Shown: in pieces, positions 5,152-20,635 of the stretch
Layout of the letters: each line of letters begins with the position of its first letter
Numbering within the stretch: the stretch's first letter is position 1
Assembly: GCF_945952055.1 (NCBI RefSeq)
Contig: NZ_CAMFHB010000048.1
Span: forward strand, 1 to 47,540
Direction of reading: 5' to 3'
DNA length: 47,540 bases
DNA from: an uncultured Alsobacter sp.
GTDB lineage: Bacteria > Pseudomonadota > Alphaproteobacteria > Rhizobiales > Beijerinckiaceae
Made by a program: the position numbers and the translations under genes
Notes under the pieces: model-generated
What the model was told of the DNA's origin: nothing
What the model saw: the letters and a program-made list of their open reading frames with translations, nothing else
Databases searched by the model: none

Positions 5152-6345
5152 TCAGCCCCTCACCGCCTTCACGATCTTCTGCGCGGCATCGTCGAGGTCG
5201 TCGGCCGGGATGACGTTCAGGCCGGACTCGCTGATGATCTTCTTGCCGAGATCGACGTTCGTGCCCTCGAGGCGCACCACCAGCGGCACCTTCAGGCCGA
5301 CTTCCTTCACCGCGGCGATCACGCCCTCGGCGATGACGTCGCAGCGCATGATGCCGCCGAAGATGTTGATGAGGATGCCCTTCACGTTCGGATCGGCGGT
5401 GATGATCTTGAAGGCCGCGGTGACCTTCTCCTTGCTGGCGCCGCCGCCGACGTCGAGGAAGTTCGCAGGCGCCTCGCCGTAGAGCTTGATGATGTCCATC
5501 GTCGCCATGGCGAGGCCGGCGCCGTTGACCATGCAGCCGATCGTGCCGTCGAGCGTGATGTAGTTGAGGTCGTACTTGGAGGCCTCGATCTCCTTGGCGT
5601 CCTCTTCGGTCTCGTCGCGGAGCGCCAGGACGTCCGGGTGCCGGTAGAGGGCGTTGGAGTCGAAGGAGATCTTGGCGTCGAGCGCGCGCAGCTTGCCGTC
5701 GGTGGTGACGATCAGCGGGTTGATCTCCAGCATGCTCATGTCCTTGGACACGAACGCCGTGTAGAGCTTCGCCACGAGGCTCTCGGCCTGCTTGGCGAGG
5801 TCGCCGGACAGGCCCAGCGCCTGGGCAACGCGGCGGCCGTGATGCGCCATGACGCCGGTGGCCGGGTCGACCGAGAAGGTGATGATCTTCTCGGGCGTGT
5901 CGTGGGCCACGTCCTCGATGTTCATGCCGCCTTCGGTGGAAACCACGAAGGAGATGCGCGAGGTGACGCGGTCGACCAGCATCGACAGGTAGAATTCCTT
6001 GGCGATGTCGGAGCCGTCCTCGATGTAGAGGCGGTTGACCTGCTTGCCGGACGGGCCCGTCTGGATCGTCACCAGCGTGGCGCCGAGCATCTCGCGGGCG
6101 AACTGCTTCACCTCGTCGATCGACTTGGCGAGGCGCACGCCGCCCTTTTCGCCGGCCGAGGCTTCCTTGAACTTGCCCTTGCCGCGACCGCCGGCATGGA
6201 TCTGGGACTTCACGACCCACAGCGGGCCGCCGAGGTCCTTGGCCGCCTGCTCGGCCTCGTCGGCCTTGAAGATGGCGCGGCCATTGGAGACCGGCACGCC
6301 GAACTCCTTGAGGACGGCCTTGCCCTGGTATTCGTGGATGTTCAT
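5152..6345 (-). CDS. sucC: succinate-CoA ligase, ADP-forming, beta subunit
   Basis: This beta subunit of succinyl-CoA synthetase carries the ATP-grasp nucleotide-binding domain. The 397 residues match the family. The start [20 protein letters not shown] is characteristic. The ATP-grasp region is visible as [15 protein letters not shown] (about 45-59), then [18 protein letters not shown] (metal-binding Asn) and the C-terminal [12 protein letters not shown] signature. It is downstream of mdh across a 105-nt spacer with heptad repeats and directly upstream of the tautomerase gene and sucD. Confidence 0.98.
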
Positions 6346-6361
6346 GGGAACCTCGCTATGA

Positions 6362-6446
6362 GCGATTGGCGAGTAGCGAATGGCGAGTAGGGGGCGGTCA
6401 GGCGGGCGCGGACGCCCTTGTTCGCTACGCCCTACTCGCTACTCAC
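6362..6446. repeat. inverted pair of tandem heptad repeats, sucC-mdh spacer
   Basis: Four tandem heptads GCGATTG GCGAGTA and GCGAATG GCGAGTA occupy 6362-6389. The right arm (about 6421-6446) carries related heptads on the other strand. Bases 6383-6392 and 6430-6439 form a perfect 10-bp inverted repeat with a 37-nt loop. The unit and layout are the same as at 3939-4054, so the same element type occupies two spacers of one operon. Confidence 0.72.
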
Positions 6447-6450
6447 CGTC

Positions 6451-7830
<1,380 letters not shown>

Positions 7831-10053
7831 ATGCCCATGGAGAGGCATGACGAGCACGATGCGCCGACCCCGATCCCGGGCGCCGGGCCGACGGTGGCAG
7901 AAGTGCTCGTCCCCACGGGCCTCGACCAGACCTATAGCTATACGGTGCCAGCCCACCTGTCGGTGGACCCCGGCGACGTCGTCCGTGTGCCGTTCGGCCC
8001 GCGCGAGTGGCCCGGCGTGGTCTGGGAGGTCCGGGAACAGAGCTCCGCCGGCGCGTCGAACCTGAAGGCGATCGCGGGGCGGGTGGACAGCCCCGCGCTC
8101 TCGGCGAACCTGAGGCGCTTCGTCGAATGGGTGGCCCGCTACACGCTGGCTCCCCGCGGGATGGTCCTGCGCATGGCCCTGCGCGGCCCCACCAACGACG
8201 AGCCCGAGCGGATCCAGGTCGGCGTGCGGCTGGCCGGTCCACCGCCAGCCCGCATGACGCCCGCCCGCGCCAGGGTCATCGCGGCGGCGGAGGGCGGCGT
8301 CGCCTTCTCCAAGCGCGCGCTGGCGGAGGCCGCGGTCGTGAGCGTCGGCGTCGTCGACGCCCTGGTCGACGAGGGAACGCTGGAACCCGTCGGGATCCCG
8401 CCGCCCCCGATCGCCGCGCGTCCGGACCCCGCCTACGCCGTCACCGCGCTGGAGGCCGGGCAGGCCGAGGCCGCCTCGGTGCTCTCGCAGGCGGTCGCCG
8501 CCCGCCGCTTCGGGGTGACGCTTTTGGAAGGCGTGACCGGCTCGGGCAAGACCGAGGTCTATTTCGAGGCGGTGGCCGAAGCGGTGAGGATGGGGCGCCA
8601 GTCGCTCATCCTGATGCCGGAAATCGCCTTGACGGGGCAGTTCCTGGATCGATTCACGCGCCGTTTCGGCGTGCGGCCGGCGGAGTGGCATTCGGGCGTG
8701 GCGGGCCGGCGGCGCGAGCGCACCCATGCGGCCGTGGCCTCGGGCGAGGCGCTCGTCGTCGCCGGGGCGCGGTCGGCCCTGTTCCTGCCGTTCCGAGACC
8801 TCGGGCTCGTGGTGGTCGACGAGGAGCACGAGGCGGCCTACAAGCAGGAAGACGGCGTGCACTACCACGCCCGGGACATGGCGGTCGTGCGCGGCCAGAT
8901 CGAAGGCGCGCCGGTGGTGCTCGCCTCGGCGACCCCCTCGATCGAAAGCCGTGTGAACGCGCAGCGCGGCCGCTACCGGCACGTGCGACTCGAATCGCGC
9001 TTCGGCGGGCGTGCGCTTCCCTCCATCTCGGCCATCGACCTCAGGACGGCGGGGCCGGAGCGCGGCCAGTGGCTTGCCCCCAGGCTGGTGCAGGAGGTGA
9101 CCCGGACGCTGGAGGCCGGCGAGCAGGCCCTGCTCTATCTCAACAGGCGCGGCTATGCGCCGCTGACGCTGTGCAAGGCCTGCGGCCATCGGTTCCAGTG
9201 CCCGAACTGCACCGCCTGGCTCGTCGAGCACCGCTTCCGCCGCGCTCTGGTGTGCCACCACTGCGGCCACATCGAGCGTCGGCCCGAGACCTGCCCGGAA
9301 TGCGGCGCCGCCGACAGCCTCGCGGCCTGCGGCCCCGGCGTGGAGCGCCTGGCCGAGGAGGTGGCCGAGCGCTTTCCCGGCCACCGCGCGCTCGTGCTGT
9401 CGTCCGACTTTCCTGGCGGTACCGAGCGGCTGAGGCGCGAACTGGACGCGGTGGCGGCCGGCGAGTTCCGCATCGTCATCGGCACCCAACTGGTCGCCAA
9501 GGGGCACAATTTCCCGTTCCTGTCGCTCGTGGGCGTGGTCGACGGCGACATCGGCCTCGCCTCCGGCGATCCGCGCGCCGCCGAGCGTACCTTCCAGGTG
9601 CTGCAGCAGGTGACGGGACGCGCGGGGCGCGGCAACACGGCCGGCCGGGCCCTGATCCAGACGCACCAGCCGGACCACCCGGTGATGAAGGCGCTGATCT
9701 CCGGCGACGTGGAGCGCTTCTACAATGAGGAGACGCGGCTGCGCGAAAGCGCCGGCCTGCCGCCCTTCGGCCGGCTCGCGGCGCTGATCGTCTCGGCGAC
9801 CGACCGCCCCTCCGCCGAGAGCCATGCGCGGGCCCTGGCCCGCTGCGCCGGCGAGCATCCCGACGTCATGGTGCTCGGCCCCGCCGAAGCACCGCTCGCG
9901 GTGGTCAGGGGCCGGCACCGGTTCCGCCTCCTGGTGAAGACGGCCCGCGAGTTTCCCCTCCAGGACTGGCTGCGCGGCTGGCTCGCGCGGGCGCCGAAGA
10001 CGACGGGGAGCGTGCGCGTGGCCGTGGACGTGGACCCGATGAGCTTTTTGTAA
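7831..10053 (+). CDS. priA: primosomal protein N', replication restart helicase
   Basis: PriA is a 3'-5' superfamily 2 DNA helicase that recognises stalled forks and reloads the replisome. The 740 residues are normal for it. Order: N-terminal 3' DNA-binding domain (about 20-120, AEVLVPTGLDQTYSYTVP), winged-helix region, helicase lobe 1 with Walker A GVTGSGKT (234-241) and DEEH box VVVDEEHEAAYKQ (about 330), a cysteine-rich zinc insertion (CKACGHRFQCPNC ... CHHCGH ... CPECGA, about 447-492), and lobe 2 with GTQLVAKGHNFP and QVTGRAGRG. The ATG at 7831 is taken; an in-frame ATG two codons on is equally possible. It is divergent from mdh. Confidence 0.97.
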   Translation: MPMERHDEHDAPTPIPGAGPTVAEVLVPTGLDQTYSYTVPAHLSVDPGDVVRVPFGPREWPGVVWEVREQSSAGASNLKAIAGRVDSPALSANLRRFVEWVARYTLAPRGMVLRMALRGPTNDEPERIQVGVRLAGPPPARMTPARARVIAAAEGGVAFSKRALAEAAVVSVGVVDALVDEGTLEPVGIPPPPIAARPDPAYAVTALEAGQAEAASVLSQAVAARRFGVTLLEGVTGSGKTEVYFEAVAEAVRMGRQSLILMPEIALTGQFLDRFTRRFGVRPAEWHSGVAGRRRERTHAAVASGEALVVAGARSALFLPFRDLGLVVVDEEHEAAYKQEDGVHYHARDMAVVRGQIEGAPVVLASATPSIESRVNAQRGRYRHVRLESRFGGRALPSISAIDLRTAGPERGQWLAPRLVQEVTRTLEAGEQALLYLNRRGYAPLTLCKACGHRFQCPNCTAWLVEHRFRRALVCHHCGHIERRPETCPECGAADSLAACGPGVERLAEEVAERFPGHRALVLSSDFPGGTERLRRELDAVAAGEFRIVIGTQLVAKGHNFPFLSLVGVVDGDIGLASGDPRAAERTFQVLQQVTGRAGRGNTAGRALIQTHQPDHPVMKALISGDVERFYNEETRLRESAGLPPFGRLAALIVSATDRPSAESHARALARCAGEHPDVMVLGPAEAPLAVVRGRHRFRLLVKTAREFPLQDWLRGWLARAPKTTGSVRVAVDVDPMSFL

Positions 10054-10070
10054 GGACTGCTACCGCTACG

Positions 10071-10397
10071 TCATTCGATCAGACCAAGCTGCGTTCGGAT
10101 CGCGCGCTCGACCCCGGCGAGATCGGATGCCGAGAGAGCCCCGAGCCTGCTCGAGAATCGCTCCTTCGCGGCGGTCGTCAGCTGATCGGCCAAAGCCTTG
10201 CTTGGCTTTCCCTGAATGCTGACGAGAGCTTCGCAGGGATAAATCCGGCTCGTGTTGCTCGTCAGTAGGACGACCTGAACGCGGTTGAGCGCCGTATTGG
10301 AAGCATCATTGCTGACGATGACCGCAGGGCGGGTCTTGCGGATTTCTCCACCGCGGGCGGGCTCGAAATCAACCCACCAGACTTCACCTCGCCGCAT
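10071..10397 (-). CDS. MazF/PemK-family toxin, predicted endoribonuclease
   Basis: A 108-residue protein starting [30 protein letters not shown], which carries the PemK/MazF hallmark (GEvWwvdf ... G.EI.[10 protein letters not shown]). Family members cut mRNA at short specific sequences and are neutralised by a cognate antitoxin. The length is typical and no key motif is missing. The gene overlaps the 3' end of the upstream antitoxin by 14 nt, so the two are co-translated. It converges with priA, whose stop is 17 nt away. Target specificity cannot be read from the sequence. Confidence 0.9.
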
Positions 10398-10605
10398 CGC
10401 CGATCAGGCCTTCCGCCCATTCCAGCGCCTCGGCTTCTCTCTGCTCGTCGCGAGCCATCTCGGCATAGGCCGTCTCGAGGGATCCCTGGACCACGTAGGG
10501 TCGCGCAAGGTCTTCGAGAAAGCCGCTGATCCTGCGGCGACCGATGACCCTGACGAGCCCATCGTACACCTCGGCGTCTATGCTGATGGTCATGCGCTTC
10601 TGCAC
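10384..10605 (-). CDS. ribbon-helix-helix antitoxin (MazE-like)
   Basis: A small antitoxin, 73 residues from GTG at 10605. The N-terminal [20 protein letters not shown] looks like a ribbon-helix-helix DNA-binding arm and first helix. The acidic C-terminus (about residues 50-73) is the likely toxin-binding tail. The start is chosen because GGAGG (10615-10611) lies 5 nt upstream. A TTG at 10617 and an ATG at 10593 are the alternatives, and the latter leaves too long a spacing. It precedes and overlaps the MazF-like gene by 14 nt. The inverted and direct repeats just upstream suggest autoregulation. Confidence 0.85.
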
Positions 10606-10616
10606 CACAACCTCCA

Positions 10617-10638
10617 ATGCATACAGCTATGCATACAG
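10617..10638. promoter_or_regulatory. candidate operator of the toxin-antitoxin pair
   Basis: ATGCATA (10617-10623) and TATGCAT (10628-10634) form a perfect 7-bp inverted repeat with a 4-nt spacer. TGCATACAG occurs twice as a direct repeat (10618-10626 and 10630-10638). The site sits between the candidate promoter and the antitoxin ribosome binding site, where antitoxin-toxin complexes usually repress. Confidence 0.65.
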
Positions 10639-10667
10639 AGTGTAGGGGCAGGGTTGGCGTCGGGCAA
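10639..10667 (-). promoter_or_regulatory. candidate promoter of the toxin-antitoxin operon
   Basis: On the minus strand TTGCCC (10667-10662) and TACACT (10644-10639) are separated by exactly 17 nt. They lie directly upstream of the palindromic operator and about 35 nt from the antitoxin start. The boxes match consensus only moderately. Confidence 0.4.
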
Positions 10668-10913
10668 GTCACACCCGCTCCGCCGCCCACCTAAAGTCGC
10701 TCCTTCGGCGGGTCCGTTCGGGTTGCGCGGCTGTAACACTCATGCTAGGTCACCCCCGCCTTTCGGACCTTCTGCAAGGGACTTTCCACGCGTGCGTGGG
10801 GTGTTTCGGCGAGGTTCGGTTCCACTCCAGACGGTGGCGTCACGACCGGCCTTCCCGCTTGCGGGTGCGGCGTCTTGGCACCGAAGTCGGGACAATCATT
10901 CGAGAGACGGCCG

Positions 10914-13003
<2,090 letters not shown>

Positions 13004-13042
13004 GCCCGCGAGCGGCCCGAACCTGAGAGGTAGGCGCGAGCC

Positions 13043-15381
<2,339 letters not shown>

Positions 15382-15447
15382 GGTCCAACGTCCAGACGCC
15401 CGGGCGGCATGGGCCGGCCGGGCTGAGGGACTACGAGGTACAGGGCG

Positions 15448-15864
15448 ATGGCCACTTTCAATTTCGAACTCGTCTCGCCGGAGCGCCTGCTCTTCTCGGG
15501 CCCGGTTCAGCAGGTCGTGGTTCCGGGCACCGAGGGTGACTTCGCCGTGCTCAAGGATCACGCGCCCGTCATGGCGACGCTGCGCCCCGGCGTGGCCGTC
15601 GTCACCGACGAGAAGGGCGCCACGCAGCGGCTCTTCGTGCGCGGGGGCTTCGCCGAGGTGTCGGCGAACGGCCTGACGATCCTCGCCGAGCAGGCCGTGC
15701 CGGTGGAAGAGGTGACCGACGAGGTCATCGCCGCCGAGGTGAAGGCCGCCGAGAAGGAATTCGCCGACGCGACGACCGACGAAGGCCGCCGCGTCGCCGC
15801 CGAGAAGCTCGCGCAGCTCCTCGAAGTTCGTGACGCCTTCCTGTCGCGCACGCACCTGCACTGA
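15448..15864 (+). CDS. atpC: ATP synthase F1 subunit epsilon
   Basis: Epsilon is the rotor-foot subunit and regulates ATP hydrolysis. The 138 residues begin [20 protein letters not shown], the N-terminal beta-sandwich. [22 protein letters not shown] is the conserved core, and a helical C-terminus (about 85-135) is Lys/Glu-rich. Last gene of the operon, 66 nt after atpD. In many Hyphomicrobiales I remember rppH following closely; here an accessory cassette of about 3.9 kb intervenes. Confidence 0.97.
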
Positions 15865-16110
15865 TCGTCCTTCAGATCCCGGGCCGCTCCGGACACTCTT
15901 GCCGCTGGGCTAGTGGTTCCTATCACCCGCGGCTCGGAGAGGACTGTCGCCTCGATCCGGCAACGCGCTCGCCGCCGGCAACACCCATGCGAGCGCGTCC
16001 GACTACAACAGTGCACGAGCCGTCCACATCGCTAGAATTTATCCTGTTCTGGAATCACCGGAACTGTTTATCCGGCCGTTCGCCGTGTCTTAGCGCGTAC
16101 ACTGGGGCAA
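15865..16110. other. intergenic region after atpC with a weak hairpin
   Basis: No gene is evident. GTTCTGG (16046-16052) pairs with CCGGAAC (16058-16064, one G-T pair) around AATCA and is followed by TGTTTAT, a weak terminator candidate for the atp operon. Base composition becomes more AT-rich from about 16030, which may mark the left boundary of the accessory cassette. Confidence 0.35.
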
Positions 16111-16148
16111 ACGTCATGGCCGCCGATGTAATTCGACGGCCATGACGT
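16111..16148. terminator. 12-bp perfect inverted repeat, possible bidirectional terminator
   Basis: ACGTCATGGCCG at 16111-16122 pairs perfectly with 16137-16148. After one mismatch another 3 bp pair, leaving a 6-nt loop TGTAAT. It lies 9 nt beyond the stop of the 65-codon gene and 246 nt beyond atpC, between convergent genes. The lack of a T-run makes intrinsic termination uncertain; a protein-binding or recombination site is possible. Confidence 0.5.
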
Positions 16149-16157
16149 GAATGCGCG

Positions 16158-16355
16158 CTATCGAACGAAGGCCGCCGCGAGCTCTTCCACGAAGCCGGCG
16201 TGTGCAATGTACGATGCCCCAACGGTGCACATAAACAGCTGCTTGGTACGCTCCATGATCGCCAGCATGGGATTACTCTGACGATGCATAAGCCTGTACT
16301 CGAGTGCGGCGATGCCCACGTAGCTGCTACCGAGAACTAGATCCGACCAATTCAT
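16158..16355 (-). CDS. small two-helix membrane protein, unknown function
   Basis: A 65-residue protein I do not recognise. It is supported by a strong ribosome binding site: AGGGAGG ends about 5 nt before the ATG at 16355. Two hydrophobic segments are visible, about residues 3-19 (SDLVLGSSYVGIAALEY) and 39-56 (QLFMCTVGASYIAHAGFV), joined by a basic stretch RLMHRQSNPMLAIMERTK. This suggests a helical hairpin in the membrane. Codons are less GC-biased than in the atp genes. It is divergent from the XRE-STAND gene, with 266 nt between the starts, and ends at a strong inverted repeat. A partner, target or effector role for the STAND protein is inference only. Confidence 0.62.
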   Translation of the reverse strand: MNWSDLVLGSSYVGIAALEYRLMHRQSNPMLAIMERTKQLFMCTVGASYIAHAGFVEELAAAFVR

Positions 16356-16621
16356 GAGATCCTCCCTTTTTGGTAGGATTTCATTCTATTTTTAGGCTCC
16401 TGGGCAGTTTAGTCATTCTCCCGCTGCCTTCGATCGCCGATTTGCCCCTAGGCAACTTCAGTTTCTGCGGACCGGCCATCTACCGCTAATTCCCTGTTGG
16501 ATCGACTTCGAGCGCGCCACGCGAGTGCCTCCGGCTTACCTATTCGACTCGCCCTTGCGGAACGCGTGCCGCCTGTCATTGTACCCACGAAACTACCTAT
16601 GTTTGTCTCCGCGGGTTGCCT
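16356..16621. other. divergent promoter region of the accessory cassette
   Basis: The 266 nt between the two divergent cassette genes must hold both promoters. TAGAAT within an AT-rich tract about 30 nt before the small gene could be its -10 box, but no matching -35 is clear. No repeats or further genes stand out. Confidence 0.35.
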
Positions 16622-19555
16622 ATGAGCGGTGCGTCCAACTCCATCTCTTCCAACGTCGTTCCAGTCGGTCAGGCGATAAAGTACGTCAGGCGTCAATTGG
16701 ACATGGACGAGAGTCGTCGGCCGCGGTTCAGCCAGACGTCGCTCTACAGGAGGTGCAGTGAGATCGAGACGGGCGACCCGCCCGCTGGTCGGCGACGTTT
16801 CAAGGACGTTCCGGACGACGCATACGCCCGCCAGAAGATTGCGAAGTTGGAGAACGACCTCACAAACTTAGTCACGACATACGAGCTCTCGGTCCTGGCG
16901 CGGGCCTTCGGGCTACCTAGTGGCTTTTTCTCGGATCGCTTCGAGTCTTTCGAGGCCATAAATCAGGCCTATCTGTTGGCGAAGACACGGCCGTCCAAAT
17001 TGGACGAGTTTCCGCGGGTCTACGACTCCGACCCTATACCACAGAGCCGTATGAGACTCTCACGCTCCGTGGCTGACAGGCTGCTGGCGTCTCGGACCAA
17101 TCGCTTCGTGGTGCTCATCGAAGGGCCGACATCAGTCGGCAAGAGCTTCTTCGTAGGTCATCTCTACCGTTCCGTCCTCCGGGCCAATTTTGCGCAACTA
17201 GTGTACCTCAACTGCGCGAAGCTGACTGTCGACCAGATCAAGCCAGAGCTTCAACGCCAGGGTTTCCTGGTCAACGACAAGTCCCCGAAGCGCATAGCCC
17301 GCGCCGCTGCCAAGCACGACATGGTGGTGCTTGACGGTCTCCGCTACGATCAATTTCGCGAGGGGCCGCGGATGCTGGGGGCGGCACCCGGTCGAAGGCT
17401 GTCGGTCAGTGACCTCATGGCGGTGGTCGCTGGGCTAACCGGACGCGATAGCCCGACTTCCGTTATCCTGGTAATGGAGAACAACGGCGAAGCGATCGCC
17501 GACGGCCGATTTGTCGATCAGCTGCCGTCGGACGTGAGCTTCATTCGAGAGCAGATCGGGCCACTGGTCCGCGAAGAGGCCATATCGTTCTTACGGAGCG
17601 TCGGCGCCGACAAGCTATCTGATCATCTCGCAGGCCAAATCGCAGAGTACTTCTACGGAATGCCGATGGCGCTGTCCGTCGTGGCCGAGGAGATACGCCA
17701 ATTGAGCGCGATACAGGTCGAACGATACATCGATGACCTGAAGCGGGGTTCCGATTCAGGCGAGAGCGCCGTCGCTCGATCAGGCAACTTCATCCTTAAG
17801 TATTTAAATCGCCTAGAGGAAACAGAGGAACTGACGCCGTCCGCGCGTTATGAGGCAAGCTACGTTCACCCTCACGCGTTCCTCAGGCTGCTTGCGTTGA
17901 TGCCTGGGCCCGTCTCTAAGGTCCATCTCATGGAGTTGGTCCGAGAAACGGCCATCAAGCGGATCGGCAGATCCGCCGATCTTCAGAACGCCGTTAAGGC
18001 ACTGCCGTTCGTCGTCGAGACGGAGCAGTCCTACGACCTCCATGGACTGGTTCGCGGGTTCCTGTCATCCGAGATTGATCGGATTGTCGCGATCGGAGGC
18101 TACGATGAAAACACGAGCCGCGACGAACTTGAGAGAATAAGTTGGCGCAGCGCTCTCCTCAGTTGGCGAATGATCAAGAGGGCCTCAGCCACTGACGGGA
18201 TCACCATCGAGGCCGTGGATGCATTCGTCCACCACGTAACGCGGCTCATAATGCTGCTGCCCAGCAACAGGCGGCAAAAAAAGAAACAGACGCCCCTATC
18301 CGATGAAATCATTGGGCGCTTCGAGGCACGCCACGACAGCCTTAACGACTACCATCTCTGGTCGATCGCCTACGAGCGGGCCGCGCGCCCCTTCCTGTTG
18401 GATCGGGCGTTCCAAGCTACGCGGCTCCATGGCCAGTATCACGCAAAAGCTCGAATCCTGGAGCGGCTTATTGACTCCGTCGAACGAGGCATACCGCTGG
18501 CGGATATCCCGTTGGCTGAATTGTACAAGGAGACGGCGCTATGCTGGATGCATACTGGACGCCTCCTGTCTGCCGAGGAGCTTTCCTATCGTGGCCTCGC
18601 GGTTCTCAGGCGGTTAGAGCCCAACTTCACGAAGTTTACGCAAGCGATCGGAACTGGGGCGGACAGCGCAACGTCGGAACGATGGCGGCAGCTGTGCGAT
18701 GCCAAGAGCATCGAAAGCATCATCAAGTTGCGCCAAGGTAGGCAGGTCGACGACATCCGTACATTGCTGGAACCATTCGCGATGGCTGCGACCCGGATCG
18801 CCACGGGCAGCCCGAGGGACTCAATCGGCGGCCGAACCTTTGCTCCATCGCTGGAAAGCGGCGCAGTGCGCATCCTCAGTCGATCTGCGGAGCTGGAGAT
18901 GCATGCCGGCGATCTGGATACTGCGTTGTCCCAGTTTGAGCTTGCCGATGCGCTGCAGCGGGCGATCAGAGGCCGGTCGCTCGATGGTGAGGCTGCGAGG
19001 AAGCTGGCGGTCGCGTTGATGCGCGGCGCCGCCGCCGATATGGCGAAGCTGCGACGGGCGCGTGGAATCGTGGTCGAGAACCTTCAGTCGATGGAAGAAT
19101 TTGCGGCGAAGCGAGGCGGCCGCGTGTCGAACGACATCATTCCGTTTCTTACCATGGAAGTGGCGGTGCTTCGCTGCGAAGGGAACTTGGACGTTGCTCG
19201 AGAGAAATTGGCGCAACTCCTGAACCATCCGTATGTGACGCGGAACGAATGCACCTTCATCGCGTCGTTGGAACTGCAGCTCGAGCGTTTTCGCCTCGCC
19301 ATCCGATCAGATACTTTGGAGGATGAATCGAGAGCAAAGCTTCGTCGGCTGGTCGACGAGTGCGAACGCTCGCACCACTTCATCCTCGCGAACGAGTTTC
19401 GGCTCTTGCAAGCCGAGGTCGCCGGGTCGGGGCTTAGGGAGGAGATGATTCTGGAGGCGAAACGCTTCTACCAAACGACAGGGCATCGTTTGCGATTGGC
19501 CGATTGCGACATGCTCGATAGTGGACACTCCGCGGTGAAGGCCATCGGGATCTGA
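16622..19555 (+). CDS. XRE-like HTH / STAND NTPase / TPR-repeat protein
   Basis: A 977-residue protein. The N-terminus (about 14-110) resembles an XRE helix-turn-helix domain: VGQAIKYVRRQLDM, SQTSLYRR, then after a roughly 25-residue insertion KIAKLENDLT and LSVLARAFGLPSGFF. A STAND-type NTPase follows: Walker A EGPTSVGKSFF (P-loop about 168-175), Walker B MVVLDG (about 234-239), YFYGMPMALSVVAEEI (about 344-359) matching the G-x-P motif, and a winged helix ending in YDLHGLVRGFL (about 471-481), like the NB-ARC MHD motif. The C-terminal half (about 570-977) is helical with TPR-like repeats. The usual TTR sensor is replaced by VILVMENN. STAND proteins are ATP-driven switches in regulation or phage defence. 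ATG at 16622 is chosen; a TTG lies two codons upstream. Codon use is atypical for the region, suggesting transfer. Confidence 0.82.
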   Translation: MSGASNSISSNVVPVGQAIKYVRRQLDMDESRRPRFSQTSLYRRCSEIETGDPPAGRRRFKDVPDDAYARQKIAKLENDLTNLVTTYELSVLARAFGLPSGFFSDRFESFEAINQAYLLAKTRPSKLDEFPRVYDSDPIPQSRMRLSRSVADRLLASRTNRFVVLIEGPTSVGKSFFVGHLYRSVLRANFAQLVYLNCAKLTVDQIKPELQRQGFLVNDKSPKRIARAAAKHDMVVLDGLRYDQFREGPRMLGAAPGRRLSVSDLMAVVAGLTGRDSPTSVILVMENNGEAIADGRFVDQLPSDVSFIREQIGPLVREEAISFLRSVGADKLSDHLAGQIAEYFYGMPMALSVVAEEIRQLSAIQVERYIDDLKRGSDSGESAVARSGNFILKYLNRLEETEELTPSARYEASYVHPHAFLRLLALMPGPVSKVHLMELVRETAIKRIGRSADLQNAVKALPFVVETEQSYDLHGLVRGFLSSEIDRIVAIGGYDENTSRDELERISWRSALLSWRMIKRASATDGITIEAVDAFVHHVTRLIMLLPSNRRQKKKQTPLSDEIIGRFEARHDSLNDYHLWSIAYERAARPFLLDRAFQATRLHGQYHAKARILERLIDSVERGIPLADIPLAELYKETALCWMHTGRLLSAEELSYRGLAVLRRLEPNFTKFTQAIGTGADSATSERWRQLCDAKSIESIIKLRQGRQVDDIRTLLEPFAMAATRIATGSPRDSIGGRTFAPSLESGAVRILSRSAELEMHAGDLDTALSQFELADALQRAIRGRSLDGEAARKLAVALMRGAAADMAKLRRARGIVVENLQSMEEFAAKRGGRVSNDIIPFLTMEVAVLRCEGNLDVAREKLAQLLNHPYVTRNECTFIASLELQLERFRLAIRSDTLEDESRAKLRRLVDECERSHHFILANEFRLLQAEVAGSGLREEMILEAKRFYQTTGHRLRLADCDMLDSGHSAVKAIGI

Positions 19556-19638
19556 ACGGGTCGCCGAGGAACGCATCAATCACCTTGCGCTTTACGTCAG
19601 TCCCTGTACGCCAACTGAGACGGGCCCATCGTGCCGCA

Positions 19639-19743
19639 CGGGTGTCGGCTATTGTCGACGACTACACTCGCGAGTATTTGGCGCTATTCGCCAACACTTC
19701 ACTTTCTGGTCTGTACGTGGCTCGGGGGTTGGACAGCGTTCGG
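19639..19743 (+). mobile_element. remnant of an IS3-family transposase (OrfB integrase core)
   Basis: In frame from about 19639 the translation reads VSAIVDDYTREYLALF followed by ANTSLSGLYVARGLDSV. This matches the IS3-family OrfB core (VVDeyTREcLAl..dtSlsG.rVareLd), including the second catalytic Asp region DD. Only about 33 residues survive, with unrelated sequence on both sides, so it is a dead fragment. It lies between the STAND gene and rppH, marking past insertion activity at the cassette's right edge. Confidence 0.75.
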
Positions 19744-19761
19744 TCCCGCGACCGACGACCG

Positions 19762-19785
19762 CGCCCGGCTCACGCCGGGCGTTTT
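19762..19785 (+). terminator. intrinsic terminator
   Basis: CGCCCGGC (19762-19769) pairs with GCCGGGCG (19774-19781) around TCAC and is followed by TTTT. It would stop plus-strand transcription just before the convergent rppH. It could be the original atp-operon terminator, now separated by the cassette, or the STAND gene's own. Confidence 0.8.
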
Positions 19786-19790
19786 GCGTT

Positions 19791-20285
19791 TCAGGGGGCG
19801 GCGTGGGCCGCGAAGGCCGTGACGACGCGGGCATAGACCTCGCGCTTGAACGGAACCACCATCGTCGGCAACGCCGACAGCCGAAACCAGCCCCATTCCG
19901 AAAACTCGGGGATCTCCGGTCCGCCGGGATCGAGCACGTCGATCTCGCTGTCCGGCCCTTCGAACCGGAACGCCACCCAGCGCTGGCGCTGGCCGCGGAA
20001 GGCGCTGAGCTTGTGGGGCGGCCCGTCATAGGGCGGGAAATCGTAGGCCCACCATTCATCGGTCGCCGCGAGCAACGACACGCTGGTCACGCGGGTCTCC
20101 TCCGCCAGTTCCCTGCGCGCGGCGGCGACGATCTCCTCGTCTGGCTCGATGCCACCCTGCGGCATCTGCCACTCGAAGCCGGGCTCAATGCGTTCCGGGC
20201 CCGCCGCATGGGAGCGGCCGGCGAAGACGAGACCTTCGGCATTGAAAAGCGCGATGCCGACGTTCGGGCGGTAGGGGAGTGTCAT
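19791..20285 (-). CDS. rppH: RNA 5'-pyrophosphohydrolase (Nudix)
   Basis: RppH removes pyrophosphate from mRNA 5' ends to start decay. It has 164 residues from ATG at 20285 (MTLPYRPNVGIALFNAEGLV), a typical RppH start; the open frame extends far upstream only through repeat sequence. The Nudix box is GGIEPDEEIVAAARREL plus AEETRV, matching Gx5Ex7REUxEE, but the final conserved Gly is replaced by Arg. WQMPQGG before the box and the YDFPP region fit RppH. It converges with the accessory cassette. A different dinucleoside polyphosphate hydrolase specificity is possible. Confidence 0.9.
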   Translation of the reverse strand: MTLPYRPNVGIALFNAEGLVFAGRSHAAGPERIEPGFEWQMPQGGIEPDEEIVAAARRELAEETRVTSVSLLAATDEWWAYDFPPYDGPPHKLSAFRGQRQRWVAFRFEGPDSEIDVLDPGGPEIPEFSEWGWFRLSALPTMVVPFKREVYARVVTAFAAHAAP

Positions 20286-20308
20286 CGGCAGGTCCGAAGT
20301 TGGAGTGT

Positions 20309-20630
20309 CGTGCGTCCTTCGACACGGCCGCTGCGCGGCGTGCTCAGGATGAGGACCATTGTAAGGTTCTGTGACCCCAACGTCCCCATCCGGAGAGGTT
20401 GTGAAGCGTTCGTTGTCCAGCTCGCATGTCCCTCTCCGCGTCCTGGCCGGGCTCGGCCCGGCCATCCACGACTTCAGAATGGCCCCGGCAAAGTCGTGGA
20501 TGCCCGGGCCGAGCCCGGGCACGACGGCTGAGAGGTGGTCGCGCACGCGGAACGTCAGGTGCAATGCGGCGCTGGAGATGGATTCACATCGCTGAGCAGC
20601 CTGCGAAGCAGGCGTGTCGAAGGACGTACG
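20309..20630. repeat. nested palindromic intergenic repeat (REP-like composite)
   Basis: The outer arms 20309-20326 and 20613-20630 are inverted copies (17 of 18). Inside, 20439-20474 and 20491-20526 form a second large imperfect palindrome (GGCCGGGCTCGGCCCGGCC against GGGCCGAGCCCGGGC, flanked by ATCCACGACTT and AAGTCGTGGAT). Both types resemble intergenic repeats I know to be widespread in Rhizobiales genomes. The 350-nt gap between gntR and rppH is otherwise empty. Confidence 0.8.
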
Positions 20631-20635
20631 ATCGA

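Follow-up and report, generated by a model that had tools for sequence, protein, structure and literature searches.

The 47,540-nucleotide stretch of DNA from an uncultured Alsobacter sp. that was analysed here (the window) carries, at positions 16622..19555 of the plus strand, a gene for a protein of 977 amino acids (aa) whose sequence marks it, very probably, as an NB-ARC-type STAND ATPase. The STAND class comprises ATP switches employed in processes as different as gene regulation in bacteria and immunity in plants and animals. That the gene encodes a STAND NTPase and was acquired horizontally finds good support in the order of its motifs, a profile match to NB-ARC domains, a full-length homologue, its base composition both overall and at third codon positions (GC3), and an IS3 fragment beside it. 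As our best reading, the protein represents an undescribed family of an already known kind, the ATP-switched STAND sensor or regulator. That it is rare, horizontally transferred cargo working like AfsR or MalT is the interpretation we prefer, held with evenly balanced confidence; the chance that such an ATP-switched regulator acts on DNA is likewise about even, and its role is possibly linked to defence.

The gene begins with an ATG at 16622 and ends with a stop codon at 19553-19555, which is included in its coordinates. It is divergent from a small gene for a 65-aa protein (16158..16355, minus strand), and the two lie between atpC and rppH. Both open reading frames (ORFs) were verified where an earlier reading of this DNA (the original prediction) had placed them, and in 300 mononucleotide shuffles of positions 15865-19790 the longest open frame reached 347 codons, against 977 for the large gene. 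Four motifs follow one another on the plus strand in the order expected of a STAND NTPase: a Walker A motif, GPTSVGKS (17123..17146, aa 168-175); a Walker B motif, MVVLDGL (17321..17341, aa 234-240); a GxP motif, YGMPMALSV (17654..17680, aa 345-353); and an MHD-like motif, YDLHGLVRGF (18032..18061, aa 471-480). Counted from Walker A, Walker B stands at +66, GMPMAL at +178 and LHGLVR at +305. When the residues after Walker A were shuffled 20,000 times, the GxP motif fell in place four times and HxLV 17 times, and the two never did so together.

Among 396 other genomes of the order we found one full-length homologue (G941:C41:17046-20051, minus strand; E 2.2e-60), and the view of the 977-aa protein as an orphan was then abandoned. 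The match has 27% identity over aa 156-977 and a second piece over aa 8-57. The homologue occupies one open frame of 1018 codons and, read from its ATG, comprises 1007 aa that align end to end with the window protein. The two have in common the motifs GxAIKYxR, F[ST]QxxLY[RK]RC, LRLLALMPG and CxMHxGRLLSA, and a C-terminal LxSGxSAxxxxGI. The ATPase motifs of the homologue are GPTGVGKT (0), VLFLDG (+69), GLPIAL (+182) and MHALVR (+296), and both later motifs were in place in none of 20,000 shuffles. At ten NB-ARC loci from related genomes (L059-L068; L069 was dropped as another ATPase), sequence patterns located Walker B at +68-84 (10/10), GLPL at +147-171 (9/10) and a motif in the MHD place at +267-327 (8/10).

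Profile comparisons point to the same domain. Against the window protein by itself, a profile of these ten NB-ARC domains matched at the P-loop and nowhere else (E 7.3e-4; eight shuffles gave 0.23-0.74 and the reversed sequence 0.097). The same profile matched a profile of the window protein and its homologue (the pair profile) over 235 columns with E 7.1e-7 and a probability of 91.9, where 20 column shuffles gave 0.21-0.95 and the reversed pair 0.44. The part of the pair profile that follows the P-loop, taken alone, matched NB-ARC with E 0.0036 (20 shuffles, 0.08-0.81). With the motifs in order and this match, the STAND NTPase of the original prediction is likely.

Known families were matched far less clearly. 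For the whole 977-aa protein the best match in Pfam was AAA_16 (E 0.0015) and the best in NCBIfam was NorR (E 7.1e-4 over 50 residues at the P-loop), both below their curated cut-offs; the best PADLOC match was Csx3 (E 0.021, P-loop region) and the best PHROG match had E 0.059. For the isolated ATPase region, AAA_16 improved to E 1.6e-4, which is below the curated cut-off, and Sigma54_activat scored 20.3 bits, just above its family cut-off of 20.2; as the latter match covers 55 residues, all at the P-loop, we read it as shared P-loop sequence. The family is without a convincing match in the copies of Pfam, NCBIfam, PADLOC and PHROGs used. Sequence searches of solved structures returned nothing for the window protein or the pair profile (E up to 1) or for the homologue (E up to 10).

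The family is very rare and patchy in its distribution. No relative of the 977-aa protein was found in 98 genomes of relatives, in 384 genomes of the class, or in the genome contig collection, plasmids, phages or viral contigs, and 396 other genomes of the taxonomic family gave 15 short, weak matches only (E 0.002-0.02). The longest frames at five of these 15 loci were read and include no STAND protein; the other ten were not read. The pair profile recovered only G941 itself among 101 genomes around G941, and in 353 genomes of the phylum it recovered the window and five short P-loop matches (profile columns 189-287). Viral contigs held nothing for the pair profile or the homologue, and plasmids and phages nothing for the homologue. 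The genome samples overlap, only two candidates per genome were scored in the large ones, and the peptide-pattern scans used for the genome contig collection and the viral contigs mainly reach close relatives. A family so patchy would probably be missed by screens based on gene neighbourhood. We recognised no publication on the family, nor on any STAND gene accompanied by a small divergent one, in a search that the subscription literature largely escaped.

The regions on either side of the ATPase core are less well defined. The N-terminal domain (aa 1-130; 16622..17011, plus strand) is partly conserved with the homologue, and a helix-turn-helix is suspected in it. Judged by eye, the second half of the domain (IAKLEN...LARAFGLPSGFF in the window protein, IRSFEKGKED...IEYALNVSTGLL in the homologue) looks like helices 3-5 of a Cro/C1 domain in which helix 3 is preceded by an insert, and the automatic alignment of the two proteins does not place these stretches in register. 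With Pfam, neither protein gave a match at E up to 10 when its first 130 aa were left intact. HTH_26 reached E 0.02 on the window N-terminus only once an assumed insert had been cut out; the match disappeared when the cut was made a little differently, and two cuts of the homologue did not show it either, so the result is unstable. The XRE-like DNA-binding region of the original prediction is accordingly not supported beyond a likeness seen by eye and this one profile hit, and we put DNA binding by the domain at about even odds. If the N-terminus does bind DNA, an AfsR- or MalT-like sensor would join the genes known from mobile islands; otherwise the domain may be a kind of NLR-like output domain that has gone unrecognised. 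Profile searches found no known effector domain there. The C-terminal region (about aa 500-977; 18119..19552, plus strand) probably consists of helical repeats and a sensor. Of the tetratricopeptide-like (TPR-like) repeats that had been claimed for it, the window protein gave nothing better than TPR_12 at E 8.1, and profile support comes from the homologue alone (TPR_2, E 2.5e-4, below the curated cut-off).

Several known proteins are similar in design. AfsR is about the same size as the 977-aa protein. This SARP-NOD-TPR regulator of Streptomyces has a SARP domain whose DNA-binding output is inhibited by the NOD and TPR parts, an inhibition that ATP binding relieves, and like the 977-aa protein it runs from an N-terminal domain through a STAND ATPase to helical repeats, which makes it the nearest worked example (PMC10936776). 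The difference lies in the N-terminal domain, which in the 977-aa protein is of another kind: no SARP domain (trans_reg_C plus BTAD) was hit in Pfam or NCBIfam. Activators of the MalT type join an ATP-switched ATPase to a helical sensor, the arrangement proposed here; MalT carries its DNA-binding LuxR domain at the C-terminus, whereas no LuxR domain was found in the 977-aa protein. Proteins with trans_reg_C and NB-ARC domains, encoded in the same genome and in related ones (for example G000:C27), have by eye the same succession of N-terminal domain, NB-ARC and long C-terminal region in about 900-1000 codons, but they pass the Pfam NB-ARC cut-off, whereas the 977-aa protein has no PF00931 hit.

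By analogy with these proteins, the C-terminal half (about aa 500-977) would hold the protein off until an inducer binds, and ATP binding would then fix the open form. The N-terminal domain, perhaps through a helix-turn-helix, would act on DNA, in the way that AfsR and MalT use their DNA-binding domains on their own targets. The simplest target would be the divergent promoter region between the STAND gene and the small gene, an intergenic region of 266 bp (16356..16621).

A number of observations weigh against an ATP-switched regulator of this kind. The spacings of Walker B (+66) and GxP (+178) fall just outside the ranges of the relatives (+68-84 and +147-171), and the sensor-1 arginine that is usual in NB-ARC proteins is not evident in the window protein. 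In the profile check suggested with the original prediction, the pair profile matches the NB-ARC domains of relatives, but PF00931, the Pfam NB-ARC family, is not among the hits of the window protein or the homologue. Much of the pair-profile match comes from the P-loop alone (E 7.2e-6 for that stretch); with E 0.0036 for the remainder, most of the signal is therefore P-loop, and the rest receives modest independent support. AlphaFold, run without relatives, gave a mean predicted local distance difference test score (pLDDT) of 36 and 47 and no usable model. No profile library placed a DNA-binding domain on the intact N-terminus, the TPR evidence is weak, and sigma-70-type promoter matches around the genes numbered 0, with 1.0 expected. 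Finally, as only two members of the family are known, the company of restriction genes described below is a single case.

The surroundings of the homologue were read over 19 kb (L072, G941:C41:9000-28000). On the side of its stop codon, the gene for a tyrosine integrase (PF00589, E 6e-16) terminates 0.6 kb away, with a 140-aa ORF between; in the opposite direction come a divergent ORF of 103 aa and two further ORFs of 144 and 312 aa. At a distance of 2.4 kb the stretch encodes a protein with caspase and FGE-sulfatase domains (PF00656, E 4.5e-32); a RelA/SpoT-type segment occurs in another protein on this side, and a type I restriction operon, hsdR-hsdS-hsdM, lies at 6-12 kb, past which come EamA, tgt, queA-like and gyrA genes. 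A tRNA gene was not found in L072. The stretch is set off only mildly by composition, with 36-40% GC in bins 6001-17000 and 38-45% before them. Given the integrase, the caspase gene and the restriction operon, the family looks like cargo of mobile islands. As a separate observation, L072 6208-18932 and L081 40-6082 (the latter also on contig 41 of G941), with the integrase, the STAND homologue, the caspase/FGE-sulfatase gene, the RelA/SpoT-type fragment and the hsd operon, form a possible defence island.

A horizontally transferred origin is likely for the window gene as well. GC content is 57-62% in the four 1-kb bins of 16001-20000 and 62-74% in all other bins of the window. GC3 is 0.71 in the 977-aa gene and 0.69 in the 65-aa gene, compared with 0.86-0.96 in seven neighbours (atpA, atpG, atpD, atpC, rppH, a fadR-like gene and a solute-binding gene; an eighth, dgoD-like, was excluded because it had been read out of frame). 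Downstream of the large gene, at about 19630..19731 on the plus strand, lies a fragment of an IS3-family transposase whose frame matches 30 plasmid records, with 68-77% identity in the best 8 of the 30. The less GC-biased codons and the IS3 remnant at the flank, both noted originally, are borne out by these figures, and together with the integrase-bearing stretch around the homologue they favour a foreign origin.

The 65-aa ORF is taken for a gene because an ORF of at least that length preceded by a Shine-Dalgarno sequence arose in only 14/1000 shuffles of its stretch and because the two genes have similar GC by codon position; the strong ribosome binding site attributed to it is indeed a good Shine-Dalgarno sequence. 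A membrane segment is usually asked to show a 19-residue hydropathy mean of 1.6. The best Kyte-Doolittle mean in the 65-aa protein is 1.05, with a second peak of 0.92, and 1638/2000 shuffles of the same composition reach 1.05, so its description as a two-helix membrane protein, which calls for two clearly hydrophobic segments, is not supported. The protein had no family match in Pfam, PADLOC, NCBIfam or PHROGs, no relative in the 98 genomes, plasmids, genome contig collection or viral contigs, and no detectable relative in the 19 kb around the homologue or in the G941 genome (a search run without a positive control). The homologue also faces a small gene preceded by a Shine-Dalgarno sequence, the 103-aa ORF, across a gap of 309 bp; such an ORF arose in 0/1000 shuffles, and its product has a strong N-terminal hydrophobic stretch (2.07). 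No similarity was seen between the 65-aa and 103-aa proteins, and the latter had no convincing match in the genome of the window (best E 0.26) or in viral contigs. The two gaps have three inverted-repeat half-sites in common, with differing spacers and by a post hoc test; at least three were shared in 0/200 mononucleotide shuffles, 2/300 dinucleotide shuffles and 4/300 random pairs of real sequence. A candidate operator repeat in the window gap, TGAGAT-N17-ATTTCA (16355-16383), is weak and was likewise picked post hoc.

These data bear on several other explanations. The protein might be an NLR-like antiphage receptor whose C-terminal part recognises a phage component, whose assembly is driven by ATP and whose N-terminus is an effector or recruits one, the small gene being unrelated; we regard this as possible, at a lower probability than a regulator resembling AfsR or MalT. 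The STAND core would suit such a receptor, as would the surroundings of the homologue, which include genes for an integrase, a type I restriction system and a caspase-domain protein. LypB of Caulobacter, whose ATPase carries Gx4GKS and MVLD and precedes TPR-like repeats, resembles the 977-aa protein, as do CARD-NLR-like and NLR-like defence ATPases in general, in placing helical repeats after a Walker A/B ATPase (PMC13236601). However, PADLOC (2023), a comparison proposed at the outset, gave no match better than E 0.021 for the window protein and none at E up to 0.01 for the homologue, neither a CARD nor a peptidase partner was identified for the 977-aa protein, no known effector domain was found at its N-terminus, the restriction operon is known from one locus only, and no defence genes were identified in the rest of the window, where none were sought. 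Rather unlikely, in our view, is that the gene is selfish cargo: it would have regulated an integrative element that has since decayed here, and would now do little or nothing for the host. The integrase beside the homologue, the IS3 fragment beside the window gene and the patchy distribution would fit such an origin, but all 977 codons form an uninterrupted frame in which every ATPase motif is present, and beyond the IS3 fragment no integrase or other element gene is evident by eye in the ORF list for 12-24 kb.

The small gene enters two further proposals. In the original prediction, the 65-aa and STAND proteins form a dedicated system of two genes, regulator and effector. The divergent layout, the similar GC3 and the good Shine-Dalgarno sequence favour this, and a small divergent gene with its own Shine-Dalgarno sequence does recur at the homologue; yet the small proteins of the two loci are unrelated, the searches turned up no relative of the 65-aa protein, and there is no clear sign that it sits in the membrane, so that a dedicated pair is unlikely. 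Homologues consistently lacking the small gene had been named as telling against the pair; the one homologue, which has nothing recognisably akin to the 65-aa protein near it, goes part of the way towards this. Alternatively, each sensor gene could control whichever unrelated small gene faces it (65 aa here, 103 aa in G941) from a related operator in the gap and release it when triggered, a STAND switch with interchangeable cargo. The Shine-Dalgarno sequences before both small ORFs, rarer in shuffles than chance would give, the gaps of 266 and 309 bp and the half-sites common to them favour it; with two loci to go by, we consider it unlikely.

The idea of an interrupted housekeeping locus is not confirmed. 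Insertion into an atpC-rppH gap is plausible because the two genes lie tail to tail within 1.5 kb in 4/29 other loci, but where longer sequence was taken, at 7/29 loci including two from the same genus, none showed rppH within about 9.5-11 kb after atpC. The genes downstream of the ATP synthase operon thus vary in order, as these seven related genomes (L033-L039) illustrate. No second copy of the cassette was found in its own genome, and no convincing terminal repeats or target duplication were found around it. A 16-bp inverted repeat (16111..16148) between the converging atpC and 65-aa genes was considered as an operator and rejected, as it has no 8-mer in common with the divergent gap; its hairpin (folding z about -6 on both strands) fits better as a terminator-like element, although it has no T-run. 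On the far side of the cassette, between rppH and the fadR-like gene, nested inverted repeats at 20308-20631 (40 nt, 83% complementary; 36 nt, 92% complementary) resemble repeated palindromic elements.

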